From positions 1 through 62,533 of the forward strand of contig NZ_VUYS01000021.1 of assembly GCF_008389435.1 (NCBI RefSeq): a DNA stretch of 62,533 nucleotides. Direction: 5' to 3'. The notes beneath the pieces were generated by a model. That model was not told the DNA's origin. It saw only the letters and a program-made list of their open reading frames with translations, and made no database searches. Positions 6,224-55,535 of the stretch are shown here, in pieces. Positions within the stretch are counted from its first letter, which is position 1. Each line of letters opens with the position of its first letter. The stretch comes from Candidatus Nitrosocosmicus agrestis (GTDB lineage: Archaea > Thermoproteota > Nitrososphaeria > Nitrososphaerales > Nitrososphaeraceae). Both the position numbers and the translations under genes were made by a program.

Positions 6224-8353
6224 ATGAAGGTGACTATTACTTTGAACAGTATGATGTTGGTTCTAGTCTTGTTTTTTTCTTATATAAATCCCGCTTTTTC
6301 TCAGACAGGGTCATTGATTATTTCAATTAACCCCGGGGCCACTGATAGTAGAAGCCAAAATCCTATTTGGCCTACTAATGCTACCGTTAATTCAGGTACA
6401 ACGATCCTTTGGCTAAACAAGGACTCCACATATCATCAAATAGTCTCAGGAACTCCGGATCAGGGTCCATCTAACGAATTTTATGGTGATTACTTTGGTC
6501 CAGGGGAATCTTACAATATAACTTTGCAAAACCCGGGTAATTATGATTACTATGATCCGGTCTGGAATCACATAAAAGGTCATATTATTGTGACATCTGA
6601 CACTGGGTTCAATGTCAGTGAGAATTTGTTATTAACCAATAATACGACACCGTCTTCACCTGATAAAACTACAGTTAACTTTACTCAACCAGTAGTGGCA
6701 GATCAAACAGATCTAGCATCCGACGAGAAAACCAATGAATCAAGTTCTGCATCAGGTTTATTTTCAAACGGTGGAATTTTGGGAAAAGCACATCAGCTAC
6801 TTAACAAACTACTTGGGGGTGAAAATAACAAAAATGTAAAGGATTCAATGTCCCTTGAAATTTCCCCACTAGGAACTTTTGAATCATTTTTCTCAGGTCA
6901 TATGTTTGGTGACACCGATTCACAAACAAACAGCACATTTGAATCTCTGTATAATCTTTCTAACTCTTTATCACTTTCAGAATACTATCCCAAGGCTTAT
7001 TGGGGCACTAATGGAACAGGGAACGGACAGGTCATTTCGCCTGTTGGTATAACCTTTGACAAAGATGGAAACTTGTATGTTGCTGACTATGTTGGAAACC
7101 GGGTCATAAAGTACTTATCCACTGATAATGGATCGTATGTTTCTAGTGAAGTGACACTCGGTTCTCCTGGTATTGACGAAGGCCAATTTTTAGGACCCCG
7201 AAACCTTATCACGGATTCGTCAAATGACATTTTTGTTGTGGACTCTGTCAATAATAGAATTCAAAAATTCGATAATAACGGAACCTTTATCACTCAGTGG
7301 GGATCTGCGGGCATTAAAGATGGTCAGTTCTCTCTCCCTATTGCTATTGATGTAGATTCAAATAACAATCTCTACGTAATTGATGATGGCACAGATCGCA
7401 TTCAAAAATTCGATAATAACGGAAACTTTTTGTCGGTTTGGCATACCGGAATTCAAAGTGACGGGTCAAATCACAAAGATATTTCGATAAATTATTTGGA
7501 CAAAATCTACATTTCTGACCCAGTTAACAATAGAATATATACTTTTAATCCTGACGGTTTACAACTGAGTACGTGGTCATCTGATTCCTTGTATCCTGTA
7601 TTTTTACAGTCCCCAACCTCAATTGCTACGGGTCCAAATAGCGACATTTATGTTATAGATAATGATTATACTCGGATTCAAAAATTCGATAATAATGGAA
7701 CATTTGTCAATGAATACCATACATCGGATGCAGAATCCAATTTGAGGCTTTCAGATCTAGATGTTAATCAGCTGGGAAACATTGTTGCTACAACGGATCC
7801 TAGGGGATATGGCTCAGGGATTTTTGGGGTTTCATTTAAGATAATCCAGTTCTCTCCACAACAGGATGGATCAAATTCATTGTTGGAAAAACCTGAAAAC
7901 GTTAACGAAACTGGACATTCTAAATTACCTGCCATTTCAAATTATACTTCTACTAGCAAAAATATTTCTGATTTTCATACCATAAATATTACTTCCGAAA
8001 ATGAGCAGAGTATTGATAGAACGTCACCAGAACTGATAACTGCTACGATAACCATTAACCCTGGGGCAACAAACAGTGCAAGTCAGAACCCCATTTCACC
8101 GAGGAATCTGACAGTTAGCGAAGGAACGGTAATCAATTGGCTAAACAAGGACTCCACATATCATCAAATAGTCTCAGGAACTCCGGATCAGGGTCCATCT
8201 AACGAATTTTATGGTGATTACTTTGGTCCAGGGGAATCTTACAATATAACTTTGCAAAACCCGGGTAATTATGATTACTATGATCCAGCCTGGAGTCATT
8301 TGTATGGAAGTATTGTGGTGACTGCATCAAACCTTAAGGACTTGAATGGATAA
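6224..8353 (+). CDS. Secreted protein: cupredoxin-like domain, NHL beta-propeller, second cupredoxin-like domain
   Basis: A 709-residue protein with a signal peptide ending near AFSQ. Residues about 30-122 and 606-700 are cupredoxin-like. Between them, after a Ser/Asn-rich linker, are about six NHL propeller blades (GNLYVADYVGNRVIKY, NRIQKFDNNGTF, DRIQKFDNNGNF). The two cupredoxin domains are nearly identical in their second half. Each keeps one His (STYHQIVSG), but where a copper-binding loop would read C-x2-H-x2-M they have DPVWNHI or DPAWSHL. The usual Cys, His and Met are therefore gone. Blue-copper function is unlikely; another metal, a different geometry or a purely structural role is possible. 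The gene follows the cupredoxin fusion at 4205 by about 300 bases. Confidence 0.75.
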   Translation: MKVTITLNSMMLVLVLFFSYINPAFSQTGSLIISINPGATDSRSQNPIWPTNATVNSGTTILWLNKDSTYHQIVSGTPDQGPSNEFYGDYFGPGESYNITLQNPGNYDYYDPVWNHIKGHIIVTSDTGFNVSENLLLTNNTTPSSPDKTTVNFTQPVVADQTDLASDEKTNESSSASGLFSNGGILGKAHQLLNKLLGGENNKNVKDSMSLEISPLGTFESFFSGHMFGDTDSQTNSTFESLYNLSNSLSLSEYYPKAYWGTNGTGNGQVISPVGITFDKDGNLYVADYVGNRVIKYLSTDNGSYVSSEVTLGSPGIDEGQFLGPRNLITDSSNDIFVVDSVNNRIQKFDNNGTFITQWGSAGIKDGQFSLPIAIDVDSNNNLYVIDDGTDRIQKFDNNGNFLSVWHTGIQSDGSNHKDISINYLDKIYISDPVNNRIYTFNPDGLQLSTWSSDSLYPVFLQSPTSIATGPNSDIYVIDNDYTRIQKFDNNGTFVNEYHTSDAESNLRLSDLDVNQLGNIVATTDPRGYGSGIFGVSFKIIQFSPQQDGSNSLLEKPENVNETGHSKLPAISNYTSTSKNISDFHTINITSENEQSIDRTSPELITATITINPGATNSASQNPISPRNLTVSEGTVINWLNKDSTYHQIVSGTPDQGPSNEFYGDYFGPGESYNITLQNPGNYDYYDPAWSHLYGSIVVTASNLKDLNG
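6409..6558 (+). repeat. 150-bp perfect direct repeat, copy 1 (partner 8137-8286)
   Basis: Base-for-base identical to 8137-8286, offset 1728 bases (576 codons, in frame). It covers the distal part of the first cupredoxin-like domain. Flanking codons of the two domains differ at many positions, so identity over 150 bases including third positions indicates recent gene conversion or duplication. Confidence 0.95.
8137..8286 (+). repeat. 150-bp perfect direct repeat, copy 2 (partner 6409-6558)
   Basis: Second copy of the internal repeat, in the C-terminal cupredoxin-like domain. Identity stops sharply at both ends, at ttgg on the left and gatcc on the right. Confidence 0.95.
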
Positions 8354-8677: not shown

Positions 8678-9280
8678 CTAAAATGAATCAAATCCCCCGG
8701 TATCAAATCCCCCGGTATCAAATCCTGCATTATCAAATCCGCCTGAATCAACATCACCTGCACCGCCCGTATCTCCCGTGTCGGCTGCTCCCGAGTCTGC
8801 AGCCCCACTTGAATCGTCCACCTGACCTTCGGTTTGGGCACTTTCGGCGGGGCTCATCGCCATTCCCATAAATGACATCATAGAAGCAAACATTACCATA
8901 TTCAGTATACCGGAGAATAACATCATCGGCATCCACATTCTATTGTCATCCATATAACTCTGCATCTGGGTCCTGTTCCCGCTCTCATATAGCTGTTGAA
9001 GTTTTTGAGATTTATAGGATAGTTCCTCTTTTTTTGAATTCAAAAGTTTGTCGCCAGTCTCAGTGATATAGAATTCAATTTTCTTATTACCAAAAAAGCC
9101 TTTCTTAATTACTACGTTGACTAGTTTTTGATTTTTCAGATCATTTACTATGAGTTCAATTTGATCTTTTGATAATTTTGTAACTTTTGCTATACTGTCT
9201 ATTTTTTTCATTCCTCGCGAAATGGCATCAAGCACCATAAAATGATTAGGGCTCTCATTAAAACTAGGGTTCGACGACAC
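8678..9280 (-). CDS. Membrane-anchored winged-helix protein with Gly/Asp-rich tail
   Basis: A 200-residue protein starting at GTG 9280. Residues about 10-85 form a winged helix (FMVLDAISRGMKKIDSIAKV, then LIVNDLKNQKLVNVVIKK). Residues about 115-140 are a Met-rich hydrophobic segment (MMLFSGILNMVMFASMMSF). The last 60 residues are acidic and Gly-rich, ending in repeats of GGFDT. The order DNA-binding domain, membrane segment, disordered acidic tail suggests a regulator tethered to the membrane with an exposed sensor tail. This is inference. The repeated tail corresponds to a 15-base tandem repeat near 8690-8725. Confidence 0.7.
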   Translation of the reverse strand: MSSNPSFNESPNHFMVLDAISRGMKKIDSIAKVTKLSKDQIELIVNDLKNQKLVNVVIKKGFFGNKKIEFYITETGDKLLNSKKEELSYKSQKLQQLYESGNRTQMQSYMDDNRMWMPMMLFSGILNMVMFASMMSFMGMAMSPAESAQTEGQVDDSSGAADSGAADTGDTGGAGDVDSGGFDNAGFDTGGFDTGGFDSF

Positions 9281-11667: not shown

Positions 11668-12052
11668 TCCTTTGATTAGCTATATCATAATATTTTATGT
11701 ATATATTCATATCTAAATAGTATTATAAAATTAGGATATTTCGTGTCCTTGAAGTAAAAGTTTATAACTTAATTATACAAATTTTAATTAAAATATAATT
11801 TATTAACTAAAATTTGATAATTTTATTTTCGAAACGATTTACTTGACAAAACTGTTTCAAATGAAAAAAGAAATATCAATCACTATGAGTGAATTGGTGG
11901 CAATATATGGTGATTTGGATACAGCTAAAGCAAATATTGGTAATTATTTGAGCTTTATGCTGATTTATCTGCAAATCTTTAATATTTTAAAAACTTTTGT
12001 TTAAAATACCAATTGAGTGGAACCCTCAATGTTCTCGATTATGGTATAATTT
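11668..12052. other. Intergenic with one very weak small frame
   Basis: AT-rich gap. A 47-codon frame (11861-12004, ATG start, containing ITMSELVAIYGDLDTAKANI) has some coding-like composition but no family and no neighbour support, so I do not list it separately. Confidence 0.4.
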
Positions 12053-12101
12053 TCTAGAAATGTTTTACATAATAATTCTCTAGAAATGTCTTTATATACT
12101 T
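12053..12101 (+). promoter_or_regulatory. Promoter with duplicated 11-bp site before the repeat-protein gene
   Basis: The sequence tctagaaatgt occurs at 12053-12063 and again at 12079-12089, 26 bases apart. A TATA-like box (tttatatac) follows at about 12091-12099, some 25 bases before the ATG at 12121, which fits a leaderless archaeal promoter. The second copy abuts the TATA box at the BRE position and the first lies upstream, so they could be regulator sites. The role is inferred from position only. Confidence 0.5.
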
Positions 12102-12120: not shown

Positions 12121-12951
12121 ATGATTAGTACAGCATCAAAGAATGGAATACTATCAGTTTCTGCAGTAATAGCTTTAGCATTTATCATGCTAGCAGCACC
12201 AGCATCAATAACTACAAATGCATTCGCACAAGGCAACGACCTGAATCAAGGTATAGGTCAATCTCAAGCATCAACACAGCTAGGAATATGTGTGTCTGGG
12301 GATGGTACTTTATTCTCTTGTAACAACTTGAGTTTCCAAAACCAAGAAAATGAAGGAAACAACGCAGCAGCACAAAGCAGTGGAAGTGATGATGATGATG
12401 ACGATGATGACGGTAACAGTGCAAGTCAAGGTATAGGCCAATCACAATCTTCTGATCAAAGTGCATTATGTGTATCTGGTGAAGGTACATTCCTTTCATG
12501 CAACAATGTCAACGTACAAAACCAAGAAAATGAAGGAAACAATGCAATTGCACAACAAAGCGGTGGAAATAACAATGGTGATGGCAATGGTGGAAACAGT
12601 GCAAGTCAAGGTATAGGCCAATCACAATCTTCAAGTCAGCGAAGCGGAGTAGTTTCAGGTGATGACACAGCCTTTTCAGGAAACAACATTAACGTACAAA
12701 ACCAAGAAAATGAAGGAAACAACGCAGCAGCACAAAGCAGTGGAAATAACAATGACGATGATGATAACCACGGAAATCATCATGACAAAAACGACAACGG
12801 AAACAGTGCAAGTCAAGGTATAGGCCAATCACAGGATTCTGACCAAAGAAGCAATGTAGCTTCTGGCGATGATTCTGAAGGTTCAGGTAACAACGTCAAC
12901 GTTCAAAACCAAGATAACGAAGGAAACAACGCAGCAGCACAAGATAACTGA
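12121..12951 (+). CDS. Secreted Q/N-rich four-repeat protein, possible surface fibre or amyloid-like coat
   Basis: A 276-residue protein. Residues 1-36 are a signal peptide ending AFAQ. Four repeats follow at about 39-88, 99-148, 159-208 and 228-276. Each has QGIGQSQ, then a variable Ser/Gln stretch, then NVQNQENEGNNAAAQ, separated by Asp- or Asn-rich linkers (eight Asp in a row after repeat 1, a His/Asp run before repeat 4). Repeats 1 and 2 carry a Cys pair (CVSGDGTLFSC and CVSGEGTFLSC); repeats 3 and 4 lack both Cys. Regularly spaced Gln and Asn recall curlin-type repeats, but homology is not shown. Acidic linkers could bind Ca2+ or other cations. Confidence 0.75.
   Translation: MISTASKNGILSVSAVIALAFIMLAAPASITTNAFAQGNDLNQGIGQSQASTQLGICVSGDGTLFSCNNLSFQNQENEGNNAAAQSSGSDDDDDDDDGNSASQGIGQSQSSDQSALCVSGEGTFLSCNNVNVQNQENEGNNAIAQQSGGNNNGDGNGGNSASQGIGQSQSSSQRSGVVSGDDTAFSGNNINVQNQENEGNNAAAQSSGNNNDDDDNHGNHHDKNDNGNSASQGIGQSQDSDQRSNVASGDDSEGSGNNVNVQNQDNEGNNAAAQDN
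12235..12948 (+). repeat. Four tandem coding repeats of about 150 bases plus linkers
   Basis: Units begin near 12235, 12415, 12595 and 12802. Blocks such as gtgcaagtcaaggtatagg and aaccaagaaaatgaaggaaa recur almost unchanged, showing DNA-level conservation of the units and potential for copy-number change. Confidence 0.85.
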
Positions 12952-43881: not shown

Positions 43882-44397
43882 ATGATAAAAGATCTCGTTA
43901 ACCCTACCAATTTTAATGTTTTAGTGTCAAAGCTAGGTGATGTTCTTGTCAAAGCTTTGGATGAACCTTTAGGATATGCTATTAACTGGGGACGTGTTTG
44001 GTCCCTGTGGCCTGTTCACTTGGAGACTGCATGTTGCAGTGTAGAATTCGGTGGAGTGTCTAGCCCTCGTTATGATGCTGAAAGGTTTGGTGTTCTGGAG
44101 GCATTTGGTTCGTTGCGTCAATGTGATCTCATTGTGGTTCAGGGAACCGTAACAAGAAAGATGGCTCCTAGGCTGCGAATGGTTTATGATCAAATGCCAG
44201 AACCAAAGTATGTAATAGCTATGGGGGCCTGTGCTATTACTGGCGGACTATATCTTGACTCTTACAATGTTTTGCCTGGATGTGACAGTATTATTCCTGT
44301 TGATGTATATGTCCCAGGATGTCCTCCGAGACCTGAGACTTTGATTCAAGGAACCATGTTATTGCAAGAAAAAATTAAAAGGTCGAAAATAAAATAA
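43882..44397 (+). CDS. nuoB: Complex I subunit B (N2 cluster)
   Basis: A 171-residue protein. The [4Fe-4S] N2 ligands are Cys51-Cys52 (HLETACCSVEFGG), Cys117 (AMGACAITGG) and Cys147 (YVPGCPPRPE). N2 hands electrons to quinone. Its last base overlaps the nuoC ATG, indicating translational coupling. Confidence 0.95.
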   Translation: MIKDLVNPTNFNVLVSKLGDVLVKALDEPLGYAINWGRVWSLWPVHLETACCSVEFGGVSSPRYDAERFGVLEAFGSLRQCDLIVVQGTVTRKMAPRLRMVYDQMPEPKYVIAMGACAITGGLYLDSYNVLPGCDSIIPVDVYVPGCPPRPETLIQGTMLLQEKIKRSKIK

Positions 44398-44969
44398 TGG
44401 AAAAAGCAAATTCAAATTCAAATTCAAATTCAAATTCAAATTCAAATAATAATAATAATATCGGTCAATCTCAAGCGATTGAAGTCAGGGACAATGACAA
44501 TTATCCTCTGTCTAAAGAAATAATCTCTTCTCTTTCAATCAACTTTGGTGAAAAAGTCAAAGTCGTTTACAAAAAAGAGTTTCGCTCCAAATTAATGGTG
44601 GCTCCGGAAAATCTCGTGGAGACGGCCCTGTTCTTGCGAAACAATCATGGGTTTGATCATGCCGAATCAGCATCAGGAACTGATTATCCTGCTGATAACG
44701 AAATTGAGTTAAACTATCACTTGGGTTCCTATAGCAATATTGATTATTATCCTTACATTGTTATTCTGTCCACAAGAGTTAATAGGGATGACCCAAAATC
44801 GAACAGTTTGATAAATATATTTCCAAGCGTAGAGTATCATGAACGCGAGACATATGAAATGCTCGGAGTTTATTTCTTGGGGCATCCAAGGAATGAGCGA
44901 TTTATTTTGCCTGAGGATTGGGCAGATATACCTCCTTTGAGGAAGGACTTTAGGATCAAGGGGAGATAA
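44397..44969 (+). CDS. nuoC: Complex I subunit C with Asn/Ser-repeat N-terminus
   Basis: A 190-residue protein. The core is a standard 30-kDa subunit: LVETALFLRNNHGFDHAES, VILSTRVNRDDPKSN, FPSVEYHERETYEMLGVYF and EDWADIPPLRKDF. The first 27 residues are low complexity (six SN pairs then Asn run) coded by a hexanucleotide repeat, not part of the usual fold. The peripheral arm near subunit D is its place. Confidence 0.95.
   Translation: MEKANSNSNSNSNSNSNNNNNIGQSQAIEVRDNDNYPLSKEIISSLSINFGEKVKVVYKKEFRSKLMVAPENLVETALFLRNNHGFDHAESASGTDYPADNEIELNYHLGSYSNIDYYPYIVILSTRVNRDDPKSNSLINIFPSVEYHERETYEMLGVYFLGHPRNERFILPEDWADIPPLRKDFRIKGR
44408..44446 (+). repeat. Hexanucleotide microsatellite in nuoC (aaattc, six copies plus aaa)
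   Basis: Six perfect copies of aaattc, followed by a short aat tract (to about 44460). Slippage would change the protein by two residues per unit without a frameshift. Confidence 0.95.
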
Positions 44970-55202: not shown

Positions 55203-55535
55203 CTAATATTTCGCTTCTGTTACTGATTCTGGAGACAAACCACCTGTATTATTCGAAGAATCTGTCGTGTTTAGCGCTTGATTAGTTCCGTTGGATGTGG
55301 CTAAATCTACTGATTCTGGAGACAAACCTCCTGCATTATTCGAAGAATCTGTCGTGTTTAGCGCTTGATTAGTTCCGTTGGATGTGGCTAAATCTACTGA
55401 TTCTGGAGACAAACCTCCTGCATTATTGAGGTCATTCCCAGTGGCATTGTCATTAGAATTTTGTGCTGAGACCATTGAGGGAGCCATTATCAAAAAACTG
55501 CTCAATACTGAAAAAATGACTAATATTATCTTCAT
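55203..55535 (-). CDS. Small secreted protein with 29-residue tandem repeats
   Basis: A 110-residue protein from ATG 55535. Residues 1-24 are a signal peptide (IILVIFSVLSSFLIMA, ending VSAQ). Two full repeats and part of a third follow, each NNAGGLSPESVDLATSNG then TNQALNTTDSS. Repeats are nearly identical in DNA. The sequons NGT and NTT suggest glycosylation. Surface display is inferred. Confidence 0.7.
   Translation of the reverse strand: MKIILVIFSVLSSFLIMAPSMVSAQNSNDNATGNDLNNAGGLSPESVDLATSNGTNQALNTTDSSNNAGGLSPESVDLATSNGTNQALNTTDSSNNTGGLSPESVTEAKY
55222..55427 (-). repeat. 87-bp tandem repeat, 2.4 copies
   Basis: Units 55222-55308 and 55309-55395 differ at only two bases; a partial third copy runs to 55427. 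Unit length is a multiple of three, so copy-number change keeps the frame. Confidence 0.95.

Follow-up and report, generated by a model that had tools for sequence, protein, structure and literature searches.

A new family of secreted proteins with predicted beta modules in Candidatus Nitrosocosmicus

We sought to identify what kind of protein is encoded by a four-repeat gene in a 62,533-nt stretch of Candidatus Nitrosocosmicus agrestis DNA (the window), which a sequence-only reading had taken to be secreted, rich in Gln and Asn, and built like a functional amyloid of the curlin type. The first part of that description was borne out. The product begins with a putative signal peptide followed by four 47-residue modules (Table 1), the GIGQSQ and NVQNQENEGNNA blocks noticed earlier are real and form the opening and closing parts of one such unit, and Asn, Ser, Gln and Gly together make up 61% of module residues. 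The repeats had also been called even; module length is indeed constant, but the spacing is uneven since the linkers differ in length. A profile built from family modules, some of the protein's own copies included, matched each of the four copies with E-values of 1.9e-18 to 2.1e-21, and Tandem Repeats Finder also detected the array (period 180, score 524). Given these E-values for every copy, and an order and Cys pattern that are conserved in seven other genomes, the four-repeat array is far beyond chance. The protein has a net charge of about -32 at pH 7 and a pI of 4.05. No cell anchor was seen in it, which counts against a role in a wall or matrix.

Table 1. Coordinates of the four-module gene and its parts in the window.
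Feature	Position	Strand	Remarks
Four-module secreted protein ORF	12121..12951	+	ATG start, 276 aa; syntenic orthologs in 7 congeners
Putative Sec-type signal peptide, residues 1-36	12121..12228	+	Ends ...NAFA before Q; read from sequence
Module 1, residues 39-85	12235..12375	+	Cys pair, type STQLGICVSG; module profile
Linker 1, acidic poly-Asp, 13 aa	12376..12414	+	
Module 2, residues 99-145	12415..12555	+	Cys pair, type SALCVSG; module profile
Linker 2, Asn/Gly/Asp, 13 aa	12556..12594	+	
Module 3, residues 159-205	12595..12735	+	Val/Gly replacing Cys pair; module profile
Linker 3, Asp/His, 22 aa	12736..12801	+	
Module 4, residues 228-274	12802..12942	+	Val/Gly replacing Cys pair; module profile
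Putative promoter region; TTCTAGAAATG element present as two direct 26-bp copies	12046..12098	+	Tandem repeat

The immediate neighbours of the gene are a methyltransferase-like gene, an MFS transporter and an HtrA-like protease. The orthologs share this setting, with the MFS transporter and the HtrA-like protease downstream and, in five of them, a 198-aa gene upstream. The module order Cys, Cys, none, none was identical in all eight syntenic orthologs, and the hydrophobic stretch of the signal peptide and its [A/V]-F-A end were preserved in 8 of the 8 compared. The gene is old within the genus. Upstream, the second TTCTAGAAATG copy continues into TTTATATA about 26 bases 5' of the ATG. This element and a TATA-like box are conserved 5' of the orthologs, the TTCTATAAATG/TTTATATA stretch being recognisable in 7 of 7 comparable ortholog sequences, and the conserved element may have a regulatory role. 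Comparison with the ortholog of genome WA-bin7 gave a dN of 0.09 and a dS of 0.82 to 1.34 for the modules, as against a dN of 0.35 for the linkers and signal peptide, so that selection holds the modules while the linkers drift. The modules are under purifying selection, with dN/dS of about 0.1. Also in this region of the window, at 8678-9280 on the minus strand, lies a gene for a winged-helix-like protein whose Gly/Asp-rich tail is encoded by a 15-bp repeat; this gene is present twice at the WA-bin7 locus.

To describe the module across the family we aligned 180 distinct hits from 107 loci, of which 167 were full length and 12 truncated at one end. Not one of the 180 had an internal deletion, and two had an insertion, one of them also being cut at an end. 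Among the 167 distinct full modules, 100 carried Cys at positions 19 and 29, 2 carried Cys at 19 and 28, 65 had no Cys, and none had a single unpaired Cys. On a module tree built with the Cys columns excluded the pair changed 13 times, and both sites changed together in every independent comparison, of which only four fall on supported branches. Since the cysteines are always paired, 10 residues apart and never single, the simplest reading is that they would form an intramodule C19-C29 disulfide that is retained or dropped as a unit. A link between molecules could exist, but it alone would not require such strict pairing. An extracellular route of oxidative folding appears plausible since the genome encodes two DsbA-like thioredoxin-fold proteins; VKOR was not found in the genome. 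The sequence-only reading had proposed a cross-linkable half followed by a half that had lost its cysteines. The pair in repeats 1 and 2 is indeed C19/C29, repeats 3 and 4 have V19/G29 in its place, and this order is kept by selection; cross-linking between molecules is not required, however, and to speak of loss presumes a direction of change.

The remaining conserved positions of the module point to its probable layout. Invariant or nearly so are N1, Q5, I7, Q9, Q11, Q15, S21, G22, S28, N30, N31, Q35, Q37, N39, G41, N43 and Q47, and odd columns are conserved while even columns vary, both in residues 4-21 (permutation p 0.0001) and in residues 32-42 (p 0.007). This alternation of conserved Gln, Asn and Ile columns indicates that each module would contain a pair of extended beta strands in which one face is held constant. 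For a single module the AlphaFold model, a beta hairpin with predicted strands at 9-22 and 25-39, agrees with this layout in outline and at low confidence (mean pLDDT 57), and the model of the whole protein, for which the input alignment came from three loci only, is all beta with a mean pLDDT of 37. At these values we claim no fold for either the module or the protein, and the low model confidence counts against the surface-module proposal made below. No model in Pfam or NCBIfam matched the protein, even at an E-value of 10, and a PDB search returned no relative, its hits being chance matches to a poly-Asp stretch and a single weak designed repeat. If the modules were disordered, low-complexity sequence that had grown by repeat slippage and had no defined fold, their polar composition and the pLDDT of 37 would be in keeping with it. 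We regard this as highly improbable, because the length of 47 residues is fixed in the 167 full modules, Cys is never single, dN/dS is about 0.1 and the beta-type alternation is present.

How widely the module occurs was determined in nested samples of genomes. It was found in 15 of 15 Ca. Nitrosocosmicus genomes with 13 to 113 matches each, the five best assemblies having 76-113 and the lowest counts belonging to fragmented drafts. A sample of the class (300 genomes) yielded 14 with the module, all of them Ca. Nitrosocosmicus, and none among the 286 genomes outside the genus. In a phylum sample of 398 genomes the only match outside the genus was weak and partial (E 0.0066). Within the same family we covered 70 genomes, 15 of the genus and 55 others, and the module was absent from 54 of the 55. 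The single exception (G642) is a draft MAG of 400 contigs with 4% contamination and nine matches; other listed genomes of its genus are without the module, and its four-module protein is 49% identical and lies on a 5.3-kb contig without the neighbours of the N. agrestis gene. These matches may reflect contamination or real presence in a sister genus. Near-restriction of the family to Ca. Nitrosocosmicus is well supported. A viral origin was rejected, as no viral contig encodes a relative. No earlier description of the family was found in open papers, subscription papers and supplements lying outside the search.

The family is large within the N. agrestis genome. A search with the four-module protein matched 62 places, and the module profile gave 99 matches with E below 1e-6 in about 45 separate genes, a count read from match coordinates in which at least two genes look truncated or broken. 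Most members consist of the 47-residue module only, and they span secreted proteins with one module and about 90 aa (29 of 88 distinct family proteins), two-module members of 143-160 aa that occur as near-identical copies, and proteins of eight or nine modules. The near-identical 143-aa genes (L017-L021, L023 and relatives) are scattered over several contigs and have in common an upstream block, GCTAGAATATTAGAGTATTGCACCTAGTTAGCAAAT..ATATATTTTTTC, also found in other species; from their sequences they are probably co-regulated copies, recently duplicated or converted. TCTAGAA was rejected as a family-wide promoter element, being present in few upstream regions. The many single-module proteins, together with upstream sequences that differ among subfamilies and gene copies that are dispersed, could be taken to suggest small secreted kin-recognition factors, receptor ligands or antimicrobial peptides. 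Such a recognition or signalling role seems very unlikely to us, since the long members of eight or nine modules, like the collagen fusion, point to a structural role, the residues are conserved with no hypervariable faces, and no partner or immunity gene was recognised beside the four-module gene.

Two members of the same genome carry a further domain behind one module, and in this they recall collagen-like and NosD/beta-helix surface proteins. One is a collagen-like Gly-Pro-Pro protein with a partial module at its N-terminus (L047 1459-2301, on a contig of about 3 kb, C28), and the other is a secreted protein that combines a module with a NosD/right-handed beta-helix domain (L050 1293-2327, on a contig of about 73 kb, C15), its NosD domain passing the Pfam cut-off. 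The nosD gene has been listed among genes unique to Nitrosocosmicus (PMC11559005), and matches of this kind may mark beta-helix proteins of the surface and not maturation factors of nitrous oxide reductase. Fusions of these two kinds are typical of extracellular proteins.

We then compared the module with known repeat proteins. The likeness to curlin (CsgA/CsgB, PF07012) lies in secretion, repetition, Q/N ladders at strand ends, beta-type alternation and a biofilm context. However, the curlin repeat has about 22 residues with the pattern Q-x4-N-x5-Q, whereas the module has 47 with Q5-I7-Q9-Q11-Q15 and Q35-Q37-N39-G41, and unlike curlin it comes with paired Cys and acidic linkers. In the curlin-repeat profile search PF07012 (Curlin_rpt) matched neither the four-module protein, at E up to 10, nor anything in the whole genome, while the E. 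coli control was positive. An hhalign comparison of the module profile with the CsgA/CsgB repeats of E. coli K-12 gave a probability of 1.5% and a score of 9.5, bracketed by the scores of column-shuffled module controls (4.2 to 10.8). The curlin-type relationship suggested earlier was rejected on these two results. Membership in curlin is not supported by sequence comparison; single motifs such as GNNA..Q are still alike, so the module could yet work in a curlin-like way.

The broader idea of a functional amyloid does not depend on curlin kinship, and of the architecture first proposed the beta-like alternation stood. Modules might assemble into cross-beta fibres in the manner of curli subunits, one half of the four-module protein being locked by Cys and the other free, and the Q/N ladder composition, the alternation and the repeated units are all compatible with this. 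The genus also aggregates into biofilm, as the sequence-only reading had assumed (PMC12448741), and archaeal sheath proteins, amyloid-like, of many copies and with putative Cys links, offer a precedent (PMC10593813, PMC11576556). We nonetheless hold amyloid fibres to be doubtful: hydrophobicity is low, the AlphaFold models lend no support, curlin searches found no match, and the strong negative charge would hinder self-association without cations. The sheath (SH) proteins of Methanospirillum and Methanothrix resemble the present family in being archaeal, secreted, beta-rich, Cys-containing and represented by many paralogs; their cysteines are thought important, and they make a resistant cell covering (PMC10593813, PMC11576556). 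They differ, by description, in being roughly 40 kDa with a cap domain and two six-stranded sheets, where the family here has small independent modules, and in being reported from methanogens, ANME-1 and Thermofilales rather than ammonia oxidisers.

Nitrosocosmicus is a widespread ammonia oxidiser of soil, wastewater and skin, and the literature leaves unanswered how its cells, lacking an S-layer, are covered and stick to one another (PMC11559005, PMC12448741). Cultured members are without S-layer and anchoring genes, and cryo-tomography revealed a wall of about 18 nm that has no lattice, along with hair-like filaments of unknown make-up (PMC11559005). The biofilm of Ca. N. franklandianus arises from aggregates that have formed beforehand, without known adhesins, and attachment of the aggregates was stated to be unclear (PMC12448741). 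Since the family is secreted and almost restricted to a genus without the protein coat usual in archaea, it is a good candidate for part of the surface or biofilm material, and because it is genus-specific, secreted, multi-copy, beta-type and under strong selection it fits the gap in wall and attachment components, for which the approximately 45 secreted genes are named candidates. The existence of a new family of secreted beta-module proteins in Ca. Nitrosocosmicus is well supported, and we lean, by a little, towards the view that it contributes to building the cell surface or the matrix of the aggregates in this S-layer-less genus. Against this we count that its link with the missing S-layer amounts to one correlation on a single branch, and that such proteins are not named among the biofilm-induced genes in the main text of PMC12448741.

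In the proposed mechanism the proteins would be exported by an ordinary signal peptide, and each 47-residue module would form two long beta strands (approximately residues 5-21 and 31-43) with a turn between them, and a ladder of Gln, Asn, Ile and Ser side chains would lie on one strand face. A C19-C29 disulfide would lock some modules, others having Val/Gly, and acidic or Gly-rich linkers would space the modules apart. Modules of the same and of other family members might then stack or associate laterally, so that the secreted proteins could contribute to the thick wall, the surface filaments or the aggregate matrix. A stronger version, that the family is a main protein of the 18-nm wall and of the hair-like filaments, a covering evolved in place of the S-layer whose stiffness is set by locked and unlocked modules, we judge to be unlikely. 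Acidic linkers and polar modules could instead make a soluble cation-binding and hydration coat that traps ammonium, copper or calcium and has no ordered polymer. Poly-Asp linkers in many members and the low pI are consistent with such a coat, the charge of the S-layer in other AOA has been put forward as a means of concentrating ammonium, and the genus itself has been suggested to have a glycocalyx (PMC11559005). We find the coat quite improbable, as linkers evolve fast and are Gly/Lys or Gly/Ser rich in other members, and selection acts on the module.

Contribution to surface or matrix, the reading we prefer, concerns proteins that standard tryptic proteomics would largely miss, because the modules are nearly without Lys and Arg (1.5% of residues); this may explain how proteins of this kind could escape notice in proteomics. 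For the mature four-module protein the predicted tryptic peptides are of 138, 49, 20 and 33 residues.

Elsewhere in the window, an ORF at 44397-44969, amid genes resembling respiratory complex I, begins with an Asn/Ser simple repeat (CAAATT x 6.8) that is followed by NNNNNIGQSQ, and an 87-bp tandem repeat of 2.4 copies with 98% identity occupies 55221-55427. At 6224-8353 a secreted 709-aa protein is encoded in which two cupredoxin-like domains flank NHL beta-propeller repeats, and long identical stretches are common to both copper domains, as from duplication.
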